A DNA stretch of 34,106 nt from Acidimicrobiales bacterium. GTDB taxonomy: Bacteria; Actinomycetota; Acidimicrobiia; Acidimicrobiales; Iamiaceae. Below, one piece after another: positions 14,341-19,085 of this stretch. The position numbers and the translations under genes are program-made. The stretch lies in NCBI GenBank assembly GCA_020439505.1, contig JAGQSO010000205.1:1-34106 (forward strand), given 5' to 3'. Below the pieces are notes generated by a model. It worked only from the letters and a program-made list of their open reading frames with translations, was not told the DNA's origin and ran no database searches. Position 1 is the stretch's first letter, and the number at the start of each line of letters is the position of its first letter.

Positions 14341-14427
14341 ATGAGCACCAGGAAGCTGATCGCCGCCGCCCTGTTGTGTGGCGTCGCCATCCTCGTGGCG
14401 TTCACCGTTCAGCTCATGATGATCTGA
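14341..14427 (+). CDS. Possible 28-residue single-pass membrane peptide
   Basis: ATG to TGA encodes 28 residues: a short polar, basic start (M-S-T-R-K), about 20 hydrophobic residues, and a short end (Q-L-M-M-I). This is a plausible small membrane protein that length cut-offs would miss. No ribosome site precedes it; a TACCAT box (14326-14331) lies nine bases before the ATG, which fits the near-leaderless pattern seen elsewhere here. It is divergent from dprE2 and 155 bases upstream of lpdA. Function is unknown, and I do not recognise a family with certainty. It could be a chance frame, though the clean topology argues otherwise. Confidence 0.5.
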   Translation: MSTRKLIAAALLCGVAILVAFTVQLMMI

Positions 14428-14491
14428 CCTCTCCCGTGGCGGCTACGGGGCGACGACGGGTTCCCTTGTCCTGGCGCGCCCGGCGGGTCGG

Positions 14492-14552
14492 TATGGTTGT
14501 CGGAGAGCTGTGCCGGTCGATCGGGCGTGCGCTCGGGCGTCCTCGTCGCCCG
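14492..14552 (+). promoter_or_regulatory. Probable lpdA promoter and structured leader
   Basis: TATGGT (14492-14497) fits a -10 box and would give a leader of about 80 bases before the lpdA GTG. Within it CGGGCG (14534-14539) pairs with CGCCCG (14547-14552). I see no known riboswitch. A convincing -35 box is lacking. Confidence 0.35.
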
Positions 14553-14582
14553 CCCGACGCCGGCCCCGATGAGAGGAACACC

Positions 14583-15998
14583 GTGACCGACGTCGCCGGT
14601 ACCGACAACCATTTCGACCTGATCGTCATCGGTGGAGGGCCCGCCGGCTACGGCGCCGCCCTCTACGGTTCCTCGGCCGGTCTGCGGGTGGCCGTGGTCG
14701 AGAAGGACAAGGTGGGCGGCACGTGCCTCCACCGTGGGTGCATTCCGGCCAAGGAACTGCTCGAGACCGCCCACGTGTTCCGGTCGGTGGCCCACGCGGC
14801 GGACTTCGGTGTCGAGGTGGGGGAGCCGGCCCTTCGATGGTCGACCACGATGGCGCGCAAGACCCAGGTCGTCGACGGGCTGTTCAACGGGCTGTCGGGA
14901 CTGCTGAAGCACCGCAAGGTGACCGTGTTCGCCGGGACCGGAACCCTCCGGGCGGACCGGTCGGTGCTGGTGACCGGTTCGGCCGGTGAGAGCGAGGAGT
15001 TGACCGCCGACGCGGTGGTGTTGGCGGCGGGGTCGGTTCCCCGGACGCTGCCGGGCTTCGAGGTGGGCGGTCCGATCCTCACCTCCGACGAGGTGTTCGA
15101 GCTGTCGGACCGTCCGGAGCGGGTGGCGGTCATCGGCGGGGGAGCGATCGGGTGCGAGTTCGCGTCGATGCTGTCGGACCTGGGCAGCTCGGTCACCGTT
15201 CTGGAGGCCCTGCCTCAGATCCTGCCGGGCGTGGACAAGGACGTCGTTTCGACCGTGCTCCGCTCGTTCAAGGGTCGAGGGATCGACGTCCGTACCGGTG
15301 TGCGGGTGAACGGGCACACCCCGGGCGGAAGCGGTACCACTCTCTCGATCGAAGGCTCCGACCCCCTCGAGGTGGACGCCGTCATCGTCTCGGTCGGTCG
15401 GCGACCGCTGTCGGAGTCCCTGGGGCTCGACGGCAGCGGCGTGTTGGTGGACGAGCGGGGTTTCGTCCAGGTGGACGAGCTGTGTCGCACCGCGGTCGAC
15501 GGTGTGTGGGCCATCGGTGACCTCATCGCCACGCCGGGACTGGCCCACGTGGGCTACGCCGAGGCGATCCTGGTGGTCAAGCAGCTCCTGGGTGAGACGG
15601 CGATCCCCGTCGACTACGCCAAGGTGGCCTGGTGCATCTACTGCCAGCCCGAGGTGGCCTTCGTCGGCATGTCCGAGCAGGCCGCCCGCGACGCCGGGTT
15701 CGACGTCGTGGTGTCCAAGCACCGCTGGGGTGGCAACAGCCGGGCGCTGATAATCGGCGACACCGAAGGCATGGTCAAGGTGATCGCCCAGAAGAACGCC
15801 GACGGAACCCCAGGGCAGGTCCTCGGGGTCCACATGTCGGGACCGTGGGTCACCGAGCAGCTCGGGCAGGGTTACCTGGCCGTCAACTGGGAGGCGACGG
15901 TCGAGGAGATCGCCCACTTCATCCAGCCCCACCCGTCCCTGTCGGAATCCTTCGGAGAAGCTGTGCTGTCGCTCACCGGCCGCAGCCTCAACTCCTGA
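14583..15998 (+). CDS. lpdA: Dihydrolipoamide dehydrogenase (E3)
   Basis: A 471-residue FAD/NAD disulfide reductase, the shared E3 of 2-oxo acid dehydrogenase complexes, reoxidising dihydrolipoyl groups and passing electrons to NAD. The FAD motif GGGPAGYGAA is at residues 17-26; the redox cysteines are in GGTCLHRGCIPAK near 50; the NAD motif GGGAIGCEFASM is near 185; a second FAD site (AIGDL) is near 312; and the C-terminal interface has HPHPSLSESF-like catalytic His-Glu (QPHPSLSESFGE). GTG at 14583 is chosen because GAGAGG lies six bases upstream and the preceding in-frame codons are arginine/proline-rich and non-conserved. It leads an operon with the E2 gene and the lipoate genes. Confidence 0.95.
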   Translation: MTDVAGTDNHFDLIVIGGGPAGYGAALYGSSAGLRVAVVEKDKVGGTCLHRGCIPAKELLETAHVFRSVAHAADFGVEVGEPALRWSTTMARKTQVVDGLFNGLSGLLKHRKVTVFAGTGTLRADRSVLVTGSAGESEELTADAVVLAAGSVPRTLPGFEVGGPILTSDEVFELSDRPERVAVIGGGAIGCEFASMLSDLGSSVTVLEALPQILPGVDKDVVSTVLRSFKGRGIDVRTGVRVNGHTPGGSGTTLSIEGSDPLEVDAVIVSVGRRPLSESLGLDGSGVLVDERGFVQVDELCRTAVDGVWAIGDLIATPGLAHVGYAEAILVVKQLLGETAIPVDYAKVAWCIYCQPEVAFVGMSEQAARDAGFDVVVSKHRWGGNSRALIIGDTEGMVKVIAQKNADGTPGQVLGVHMSGPWVTEQLGQGYLAVNWEATVEEIAHFIQPHPSLSESFGEAVLSLTGRSLNS

Positions 15999-16044: not shown

Positions 16045-17361
16045 ATGGCCGACATCGAGCTCCCCCAGCTAGGCGAGAGCGTCACCGAAGGCACCATCAC
16101 CCGGTGGTTCAAGTCGGTCGGAGATCAGGTGGCCGAGGATGAGCCCCTGTTCGAGGTCTCCACCGACAAGGTCGACTCCGAGGTGCCGTCCCCGGTCGGA
16201 GGGTTCCTGGTCGAGATCCTGGTGGCCGAGGGCGACACCGTCGACGTCGGAACCCGCTTGGCGGTGATCGCCGACTCGGCGCCGGAAGGAGGAGCGGCAG
16301 CTTCGGCCACTCCGGAAGCGGCCCCCGCACCCGAGCCGACTCCCGCCCCGGAACCGGCCCCGGCTCCTGCCCCGGCCCCGGCTCCCGCCCCTGCTCCACC
16401 GGCGGCCCCGGGGGTCTCGGCCGGCACCGGGGTGCTGCTGTCTCCGGTGGTTCGTCGCCTCGTCGATGACGCCGGCGTCGACCCCGCCTCGATCACCGGC
16501 ACGGGAGTGGGGGGACGGATCACCCGGTCCGACGTGGAAGCTCACCTCCGCAACCGCCCGGCCGCCGCGCCTGCTGCCCGCGCCGCGTCGGCCCCGGGTC
16601 GACCGACACGGCCCGCACCCCCGGCCCCGACCGTCGCCGCCGGTGCCGACACCCCGGTGCCCCTCAACAAGATCCGGCGGATCACCGCCGAACACATGGT
16701 TCGTTCCCTGGAGACCTCCGCCCACGCCTACGTGAGCACCGAGGTGGACTACGAGGCGGTCGAGCGGGTCCGGAAATCGGTCAAGGACTCGTTCAAGGTC
16801 GAGGAGGGCTTCTCTCTCACCTACCTTCCCTTCGTGGCCCGTGCACTGATCGACGCCCTGGCCGAGTATCCGCTCGTCAACTCGTCCATGGGTGAGGACG
16901 CGGATCGGATCGTGGTGCACGGCAGCATCAACGTGGGAATAGCGGTGGACCTCGATCACGAAGGTCTGATCGTCCCCGTGGTCCACAACTCCCAGGACCA
17001 GCGTCTGCGGGCCCTGGCCCGCAACGTGTCGGACCTGGCTGACCGGGCCCGCGCCAGGGCCCTCACCGCCGATGACATCACCGGCGGCACGGTGACCATC
17101 ACCAACGTGGGCAACACCGGTACCACGTTCCTGCTTCCGGTGATCAACCAGCCCCAGGTGATGATCCTGTCCACCGACGGTGTGTCGCGTCGACCGGTGG
17201 TGGTGACCGACGCCGAAGGCGGGGAGAGCATCGCCATCCGGTCGCGCGGGAACCTGACGCTGGGCTGGGACCACCGCGCCTTCGACGGCGCCTACGCCGC
17301 TCAGTTCCTGGCCCGGGTACGCGAGATCCTCGAGACCCGCGACTGGTCAGCGGAGATGTAG
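16045..17361 (+). CDS. sucB: 2-oxo acid dehydrogenase E2 component (dihydrolipoamide acyltransferase)
   Basis: A 438-residue E2 core protein. One lipoyl domain (1-78) carries the lipoylated lysine K42 in S-T-D-K-V-D-S-E. An Ala/Pro/Glu-rich flexible linker (about 88-135) with tandem P-A repeats follows. The E3-binding domain is at about 140-176 (LLSPVVRRLVDDAGVD...GVGGRITRSDV). The catalytic acyltransferase domain (about 205-438) ends with the active-site motif DHRAFDG (409-415). The ATG at 16045 has an AAGCGAG ribosome site. Whether it serves 2-oxoglutarate or pyruvate dehydrogenase cannot be settled from this gene alone; actinobacterial E2s of this type are annotated either way. It sits 46 bases after lpdA and 47 before the lipoate gene, so enzyme and cofactor synthesis are co-transcribed. 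Confidence 0.9.
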   Translation: MADIELPQLGESVTEGTITRWFKSVGDQVAEDEPLFEVSTDKVDSEVPSPVGGFLVEILVAEGDTVDVGTRLAVIADSAPEGGAAASATPEAAPAPEPTPAPEPAPAPAPAPAPAPAPPAAPGVSAGTGVLLSPVVRRLVDDAGVDPASITGTGVGGRITRSDVEAHLRNRPAAAPAARAASAPGRPTRPAPPAPTVAAGADTPVPLNKIRRITAEHMVRSLETSAHAYVSTEVDYEAVERVRKSVKDSFKVEEGFSLTYLPFVARALIDALAEYPLVNSSMGEDADRIVVHGSINVGIAVDLDHEGLIVPVVHNSQDQRLRALARNVSDLADRARARALTADDITGGTVTITNVGNTGTTFLLPVINQPQVMILSTDGVSRRPVVVTDAEGGESIAIRSRGNLTLGWDHRAFDGAYAAQFLARVREILETRDWSAEM

Positions 17362-17408: not shown

Positions 17409-19085
17409 GTGCTGCACATCCGTTGGCTGGGGCGGGTTCGCTACCGCGATGCCCATGCGCTCCAGCACGGGTTGTCCGATCTCGGTGACCGCAACCACCT
17501 CCTACTGTTGGAGCATCCCTCGGTGTACACCCTGGGTGTGCGGGCTGACCCGGCCCACGTCCTGGTCGACCCGGCCACCGTCGGGGCCGAGCTGGTGACC
17601 GCCGACCGCGGGGGAGACGTGACCTTCCACGGGCCGGGCCAACTGGTCGGCTATCCGATCCTGACCCTCCCCGGCAAGGGAGCCGGCTCCGCCCCCGACA
17701 CCGTCGCCTACGTGCGTACCGTCGAACAGTTGGTGATCGACACCTTGGCCGACCTCGGTCTGGATGCTGGGCGGCTGGACGACTATCCCGGGGTCTGGGT
17801 CGGGGTGGGAACCGACCGGCCTCGCAAGATCTGCGCGATCGGAGTTCGTCTGAGCCGAGGCCGGACGTTGCACGGGTTCGCCCTCAACGTCGATCCCGAT
17901 CTGGCGATGTTCGATCACATCGTCCCCTGCGGCATCACCGACAAGGCCGTCACGTCGATGGCGGCCGAGGGACTGAAGGTGACAATGTCCGAGGTCGTGG
18001 ACGCGCTGGCGGCGCGGGCGATCGGGCTGTGGGGTTCGGATGGGTCGACCCGATCTGACGTCGCCTGGCGGATGCGCACCGATGACCTCGCCCCCTTCAC
18101 CCGGGGAGAGTCGACGGGGCCGACCGATCGCAGGGCGGGTCGCCGTCGGGAGGCCGGGGTGAGCGGAGGCCTGGAGATCGCCGAACGCAAGCCCTCGTGG
18201 ATGAAGGCCCGGGCCCGGTTCGGTCCCGAGTACCTGGCGGTCAAGCGGACGATGCGCGAGCTGTCGCTGGTCACGGTGTGCGAGGAGGCGGGCTGTCCCA
18301 ACATCTCGGAGTGCTGGTCGGACGGGACGGCGACGTTCATGTTGTGCGGTGAGCGCTGCACCCGGGCATGTGGGTTCTGCCTGGTCGACACCCGCCGCCC
18401 GCAGGCGTTGGACCCCGACGAGCCGGCCCACGTGGCCGAAGCTGTCGATCGCATGGGCCTGCGGTACGCCGTTCTGACCATGGTGGCCCGCGACGACCTG
18501 GCCGACGGCGGCGCGGCGCACGTCGCCGCCACCGTGGCCGCCATCCGAAGCCGTACGCCCGGAGCCCAGGTCGAGGCCTTGATCTCCGACCTCGGAGGCG
18601 ACCCCGACTCGTTGCAGGTGGTGTTCGACAGCCGACCCGACGTGCTCAACCACAACGTCGAGACCGTTCCCCGCCTTCAGCGGCTCGCTCGTCCCAACGC
18701 CTCCTACGCCCGCAGCCTCGCGGTGCTGGCTCGGGCGAAAGCGGCGGGCCTGATGACCAAGACCAGCCTGATCGTCGGTATGGGTGAGACGGTCCAGGAG
18801 GTCCACGACACGCTCCACGACCTGAGGGGGGTGGGGGTCGACATCGTGACGGTGGGCCAGTACCTCCGCCCCACCGAACAGCATCTGCCGGTGGCCCGGT
18901 GGTGGACCCCCGAGGAGCTCGAGGATCTGAAGTCGACGGGCGAGGGTCTCGGTATCGGCCACGTGGAGGCGTCGCCATTGACGCGCAGCAGCTACCACGC
19001 CCGCCAGGCCGCCGACGCCGCCGGTGGGTCGTCGCCCGAACCGGTGAGCACGCCGGTGGCGGTGGCGGTACCGTCCCGTCCATGA
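17409..19085 (+). CDS. lipB-lipA: Fused octanoyltransferase LipB - lipoyl synthase LipA
   Basis: One uninterrupted 558-residue frame holds both steps of lipoate assembly. Residues 1-208 are LipB: RGGDVTFHGPGQLVGYP (71-83 region, His74), lysine K140 in RKICAIG, and the acyl-accepting C174 in VPCGITDK. Residues 209-250 are a charged linker. Residues 251-558 are LipA, a radical-SAM enzyme: the auxiliary cluster cysteines C291, C296 and C302 (C-x4-C-x5-C), the SAM-cluster cysteines C317, C321 and C324 (C-x3-C-x2-C), and the terminal RSSY motif. LipB moves octanoyl from ACP to E2 lysines and LipA inserts the two sulfurs. Start GTG at 17409 follows AGGGA. An internal GTG at 18159 with its own ribosome site could give separate LipA. 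The stop overlaps the next gene (ATGA). Confidence 0.92.
   Translation: MLHIRWLGRVRYRDAHALQHGLSDLGDRNHLLLLEHPSVYTLGVRADPAHVLVDPATVGAELVTADRGGDVTFHGPGQLVGYPILTLPGKGAGSAPDTVAYVRTVEQLVIDTLADLGLDAGRLDDYPGVWVGVGTDRPRKICAIGVRLSRGRTLHGFALNVDPDLAMFDHIVPCGITDKAVTSMAAEGLKVTMSEVVDALAARAIGLWGSDGSTRSDVAWRMRTDDLAPFTRGESTGPTDRRAGRRREAGVSGGLEIAERKPSWMKARARFGPEYLAVKRTMRELSLVTVCEEAGCPNISECWSDGTATFMLCGERCTRACGFCLVDTRRPQALDPDEPAHVAEAVDRMGLRYAVLTMVARDDLADGGAAHVAATVAAIRSRTPGAQVEALISDLGGDPDSLQVVFDSRPDVLNHNVETVPRLQRLARPNASYARSLAVLARAKAAGLMTKTSLIVGMGETVQEVHDTLHDLRGVGVDIVTVGQYLRPTEQHLPVARWWTPEELEDLKSTGEGLGIGHVEASPLTRSSYHARQAADAAGGSSPEPVSTPVAVAVPSRP
18148..18161 (+). promoter_or_regulatory. Internal ribosome site and GTG start for stand-alone LipA
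   Basis: GGGAGG (18148-18153), five bases, then an in-frame GTG (18159-18161) at codon 251, exactly where LipA homology begins. It suggests LipA can be translated alone (308 residues, normal family length) as well as in the fusion. Confidence 0.5.
19069..19074 (+). promoter_or_regulatory. Possible -10 box inside the end of lipB-lipA
   Basis: TACCGT lies seven bases before the ATG of the gluconolactonase-like gene, so that gene may have its own leaderless message as well as read-through from the operon. There is no -35 match. Confidence 0.3.

Follow-up and report, generated by a model that had tools for sequence, protein, structure and literature searches.

In lipoate assembly, LipB takes an octanoyl group from ACP via its cysteine and passes it to the lipoyl lysine, after which LipA inserts two sulfurs (PMC9307952; PMC12246082). 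For LipB of Mycobacterium tuberculosis, the catalytic dyad is Cys176/Lys142 (PMC9307952). It is poorly understood how LipA encounters the octanoylated protein on which it acts and whether it cooperates with LipB. Here, we describe lipBA, a reading frame in which LipB and LipA are joined, from a draft genome of an Acidimicrobiales bacterium (contig JAGQSO010000205.1, positions 1 to 34,106; this whole stretch of 34,106 nt is referred to as the window). We read lipBA as probably encoding a one-chain bifunctional LipB-LipA lipoate-assembly enzyme, with a single origin, a benefit from proximity, and no free LipA.

The locus is a single open frame of 558 codons, with LipB and LipA both complete (Table 1). 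The frame is uninterrupted, as the preliminary description had stated; it starts with GTG, and no stop precedes the TGA at 19083-19085. Upstream of the starting GTG, back to the previous stop, there is no in-frame ATG, GTG, or TTG. The LipB part passed the curated cut-offs of TIGR00214 (144.6 bits; cut-off, 83.55) and NF010925 (194.7 bits; cut-off, 155), and the LipA part passed that of TIGR00510 (335.1 bits; cut-off, 310.25). By NCBIfam and Pfam profiles, LipB spans residues ~2-203 and LipA residues ~256-537. The same description had listed all catalytic residues of both enzymes, and these were confirmed, namely, the LipB dyad (K140 and C174, the latter pair being the counterpart of the M. 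tuberculosis dyad), the LipA auxiliary-cluster cysteines (C291/C296/C302; Cx4Cx5C), and the radical-SAM cysteines (C317/C321/C324; Cx3Cx2C). The C-terminal RSSY motif of LipA (R526-S527-S528-Y529), the serine of which goes with the auxiliary cluster, is also present, and the dyad, both cysteine triads, and RSS are invariant in an alignment of 53 sequences. Over aligned structures, identity was 51% to M. tuberculosis LipB (1W66) and 52 to 55% to M. tuberculosis LipA (5EXI, 5EXJ, and 5EXK), with the same catalytic residues in each case. From sequence, we infer that the LipB part transfers octanoyl from ACP to lipoyl domains and that the LipA part inserts sulfur. The calculated mass of the whole protein is 59.7 kDa.

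Table 1. Features of the lipBA region, with positions in the window
Feature	Position	Strand	Evidence or remark
E3 dihydrolipoyl dehydrogenase	14391..15998	+	TIGR01350, 460 bits (cut-off, 408.8); 5' limit uncertain
E2 dihydrolipoamide succinyltransferase, one lipoyl domain	16045..17361	+	TIGR02927, 431.4 bits (cut-off, 423.45)
lipBA, octanoyltransferase-lipoyl synthase fusion	17409..19085	+	558 aa; GTG start; class-wide conservation
LipB domain, residues ~1-205	17409..18023	+	NCBIfam/Pfam profiles; dyad; 1w66, Z 29.8
LipB K140	17826-17828	+	
LipB C174	17928-17930	+	
Linker	18024..18158	+	Alignment; two motifs flanking low-confidence residues 222-236
LipA domain, residues ~259-538	18183..19022	+	TIGR00510; 5exk, Z 42.6
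GGGAGG, 5 nt, GTG (proposed internal start)	18148..18161	+	Most likely ordinary codons of a conserved motif

A total of 84,980 species genomes were scanned, and the best 80 loci were read; the scan is biased because the whole fusion served as the query. Both domains shared a frame in 80/80 of these best loci, the gap between the BLAST-matched parts was 66 to 315 nt and always a multiple of 3, and the linkers held no stop, the sole stop counted (L050) being the natural end of LipA. Locus titles were Acidimicrobiia, Acidimicrobiales, and similar. Two loci with an Acidimicrobiia-type fusion carried other titles, “Bifidobacterium breve” (L076; CAMBEL010000003.1) and “Acidobacteria bacterium” (L011; JAGWYK010000010.1), and are probably mislabelled or from mixed bins. 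An even draw of same-class genomes was also used (395 taken, 363 with a match). Together with further sets (46/50 and 76/80), the matches listed from this draw gave about 270 class genomes that were read, and these had one open frame for both domains, a few being cut at contig ends; wherever both domains lay on one contig, one frame was near-universal. Small genomes of the class (about 1 Mb) keep the fusion too.

Among the exceptions opened, contig ends accounted for G195, G109, and the fused copy of G191, which also has a separate lone LipB. A frameshift lies inside LipA in G215/L119, in which the LipB frame continues unbroken up to the LipA start, and a stop codon lies inside LipB in G356/L088; in all other class matches opened with a stop reported “inside,” the stop came after LipA. 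G092 has a lone LipB and no LipA match, in a genome that is 85% complete. Secondary fission within the class was considered for G215, G356, G191, and G092 and was rejected in favor of the frameshift, internal stop, contig end, and incomplete genome, respectively. In two genomes of one family (f41; L207 and L210), a LipB that ends in a stop of its own stands alone; one of these genomes has a fused copy as well, cut at a contig end.

The fusion is genuine. The source draft assembly comprises 288 contigs, in which an assembly or sequencing error could have merged two genes, but the same fusion is found in complete genomes, e.g., IMCC26256 (L072), and in some 270 others, so that the relatives already refute such an error and its probability is negligible. 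The LipA of IMCC26256 is identical to that of another genome of the same class (G003). The doubt about a missed stop, which the preliminary description had tied to stops between the domains in all close relatives, was thus settled in the opposite direction.

LipB and LipA had been described as usually separate proteins, and this holds for the other actinobacterial classes, where, within a set of 396 genomes sampled across the phylum, the LipA frames were separate. In many actinobacteria, lipB adjoins lipA; loci L126-L133 have the neighboring genes in one frame with 1 or 2 stops between them, and elsewhere outside the class, neighboring lipB and lipA lie in different frames. A quick likelihood tree, built from 106 LipA sequences, placed the fused ones in one group, the only “split” member of which is the frameshifted L119. 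Two label changes suffice on this tree, the second being L119, and the branch with all fused sequences had an SH-aLRT of 92. Because the fused LipAs cluster on the tree, a single origin of the fusion near the base of Acidimicrobiia is likely. At that point, an adjacent lipB-lipA pair would have become one gene, whose product would have displaced free LipA.

The linker has a conserved order. A class-wide motif, DVAWR..DLAPF[ST]RGxG, follows the LipB domain (window 18030-18100; residues about 213-230), takes the form AF[ST]RG in deeply branching members, and was absent from those separate LipB proteins that were inspected. Behind its DVAWR..DLAPF[ST]RG part come residues 222-236, the only linker residues with a pLDDT of <50, and then an RLxGRLxxAGV-like motif (residues 241-251). 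Length and sequence differ widely in the middle of the linker, with the frame kept. In structural alignment, residue 11 onward of M. tuberculosis LipA matches residue 228 onward of the model, and LipA's own N-terminal arm is therefore the probable source of RLxGRLxxAGV. Cleavage of the chain in the disordered linker into two ordinary enzymes could draw on the flexible, low-confidence stretch; however, the variable part has no conserved cleavage-like sequence, and cleavage would make it unnecessary to keep the frame, so we regard it as very improbable.

The preliminary description further proposed that a ribosome site and an in-frame GTG at the exact domain border let the cell make free LipA. 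The positions are as described, with GGGAGG (18148-18153) lying 5 nt before GTG (18159-18161; codon 251). The placement at the border did not stand, as codon 251 lies within the conserved RLxGRLxxAGV motif, aligned with the N-terminal arm of LipA, and the start itself was not supported. Codon 251 encodes the valine of this motif, which is conserved as an amino acid and not as a GTG codon. Among 66 distinct AGV sequences, the valine codon was GTC in 34, GTG in 22, GTT in 7, and GTA in 3; the share of GTG (22/66) compares with 45% among all valine codons (P = 0.06, toward a deficit of GTG). Relatives without valine at this site have alanine, leucine, or other residues, and GAGG arises from the codons for Glu-Ala in this motif. 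A start with a Shine-Dalgarno (SD) match of at least 5 nt, at most 45 codons before LipA, was counted in 12/101 sequences versus 15.2 ± 3.3 in synonymous shuffles; with a match of at least 4 nt, 43 were observed versus 44.9 ± 4.2. Control stretches within LipB and LipA gave start-plus-SD counts in a similar range. No promoter- or terminator-like sites were found in window 17950-18300.

Because neither codon identity nor the shuffle counts show a signal, the internal start is best read as chance, GGGAGG, spacer, and GTG being most likely ordinary codons of the motif. Production of two proteins, the full fusion and a free LipA translated from GTG 18159 via GGGAGG (calculated mass, 33.0 kDa), has in its favor that a plausible SD with suitable spacing exists in the source genome and that the corresponding position in one further relative (L016) is occupied by a GTG with a 5-nt SD. 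Against it stand the frequency of GTG below background, the many relatives with GTC, GTT, GTA, or a different residue, and the start-plus-SD counts no higher than in shuffles, which leave two products improbable. Free LipA from the internal GTG would then have no role in normal function.

AlphaFold2 models were made for the window protein, aligned with 52 relatives, and, from a separate and likewise divergent alignment, for a divergent member (L066). Mean pLDDT was 88.4 for both, with pTM values of 0.89 and 0.90, respectively. By rough estimate, two freely oriented domains would be expected to give a pTM of about 0.55, and values of 0.84 to 0.86 already require inter-domain errors of about 2 to 3 angstroms; with pTM as an indirect measure, the models point to a fixed domain arrangement. 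The modelled folds match LipB 1W66 and LipA 5EXK (Z scores in Table 1). In both models, the aligned stretch of LplA structures begins at residue 1 and extends across the same LipA helix (aligned end points, 433-445 and 435-447); the domain arrangement therefore looks alike, a weak hint that LipA docks on LipB in the same way in two divergent members.

The gene neighborhood supplies a candidate substrate. E2 ends 47 nt before the start of lipBA (Table 1). Among the 58 relatives with enough flank, E2 lies just before lipBA in 56 and E3 is present in 57, and the run E3-E2-lipBA was found in 56/58. Given this conserved order, the cell probably produces the enzyme along with one of its substrates; the three genes would be co-transcribed as an operon-like run, and the fusion protein likely acts on the E2 of the same run. 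The fusion directly follows E3 in “Candidatus Microthrix sp.” UBA814 (L062), where no E2 was found upstream within the stretch. The source genome has one LipA, that of lipBA, and encodes GcvH, E2, and two further biotinyl/lipoyl domains. Apart from the LipB of lipBA, it has just a weak, short LplA-like protein (L113; C229:9712-10215, minus strand, 230 aa, 26 to 35 bits against LplA models). Downstream, the ATG of the following gene and the lipBA stop overlap as ATGA (window 19082-19085); by eye, the product of this gene resembles an SMP-30/gluconolactonase-type protein, and a similar gene lies near lipBA in 3/80 relatives.

In the reading that we favor, the LipB part would take octanoyl from octanoyl-ACP onto Cys174 and pass it to the lipoyl-domain lysine of the neighboring E2, GcvH, and other lipoyl proteins, and the LipA part, kept alongside at a more or less fixed position, would insert the two sulfurs. 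The 1:1 stoichiometry and proximity may be of benefit when a lipoyl domain calls at one site after the other, and proximity would be expected to favor conversion of a freshly octanoylated domain. A hand-off of octanoyl-E2 between the sites, as first proposed from the sequence, is plausible and compatible with the predicted fixed arrangement.

Alternatively, both parts of a real fusion may work with no hand-off, the tether only fixing expression and stoichiometry or being a neutral ratchet, and lipoyl domains diffusing between the enzymes as usual. Fusions can be selectively neutral, the middle of the linker is highly variable in length and sequence, and since lipB-lipA adjacency pre-exists outside the class, fusion needs just the loss of stops. 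The retention of the fusion across the whole class, genomes of about 1 Mb included, the conserved linker motifs, and the predicted fixed geometry in two divergent members argue against this account, which we consider unlikely but not far-fetched. A rigid bienzyme, on which the octanoylated lipoyl domain would stay bound while it moves from LipB to LipA, is likewise unlikely; if real, it would constitute true channelling of a protein-bound intermediate, and a whole bacterial class would have channelling as its ancestral and main way of assembling lipoate.

The lipBA fusion can mark Acidimicrobiia at the molecular level, and its class-wide occurrence and predicted fixed geometry make it a natural, ready-made construct for determining structures and for the kinetics of octanoyl transfer followed by sulfur insertion. 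Annotation pipelines may name lipBA for just one of its two activities, and UniProt's automatic annotation may assign the label “multifunctional fusion protein” to proteins of this kind.

A lipoyl-attaching enzyme also stands in front of LipA in NF053790 (LplA_LipA_fuse, bifunctional lipoate-protein ligase/lipoyl synthase), whose ligase domain is, by its name, LplA, whereas lipBA has LipB. Membership of lipBA in NF053790 was rejected (331.1 bits versus a cut-off of 800; the best stretch matches the LipA part alone). The fused lipoate ligases Lpl(AB)/Lpl(BA), as presented in passages of a survey (PMC10332631), likewise join lipoate-assembly modules, but these are the catalytic and accessory domains of one ligase, whereas lipBA joins two consecutive enzymes; those passages name no LipB-LipA fusion, and “Acidimicrob” is absent from the survey's main text. 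No description of a LipB-LipA fusion was found in the literature searched. The enzymes and the pathway are known, and the architecture is widespread and, as far as searched, undescribed. LipB and LipA are two proteins in M. tuberculosis, whereas lipBA is one chain with class-specific linker motifs.
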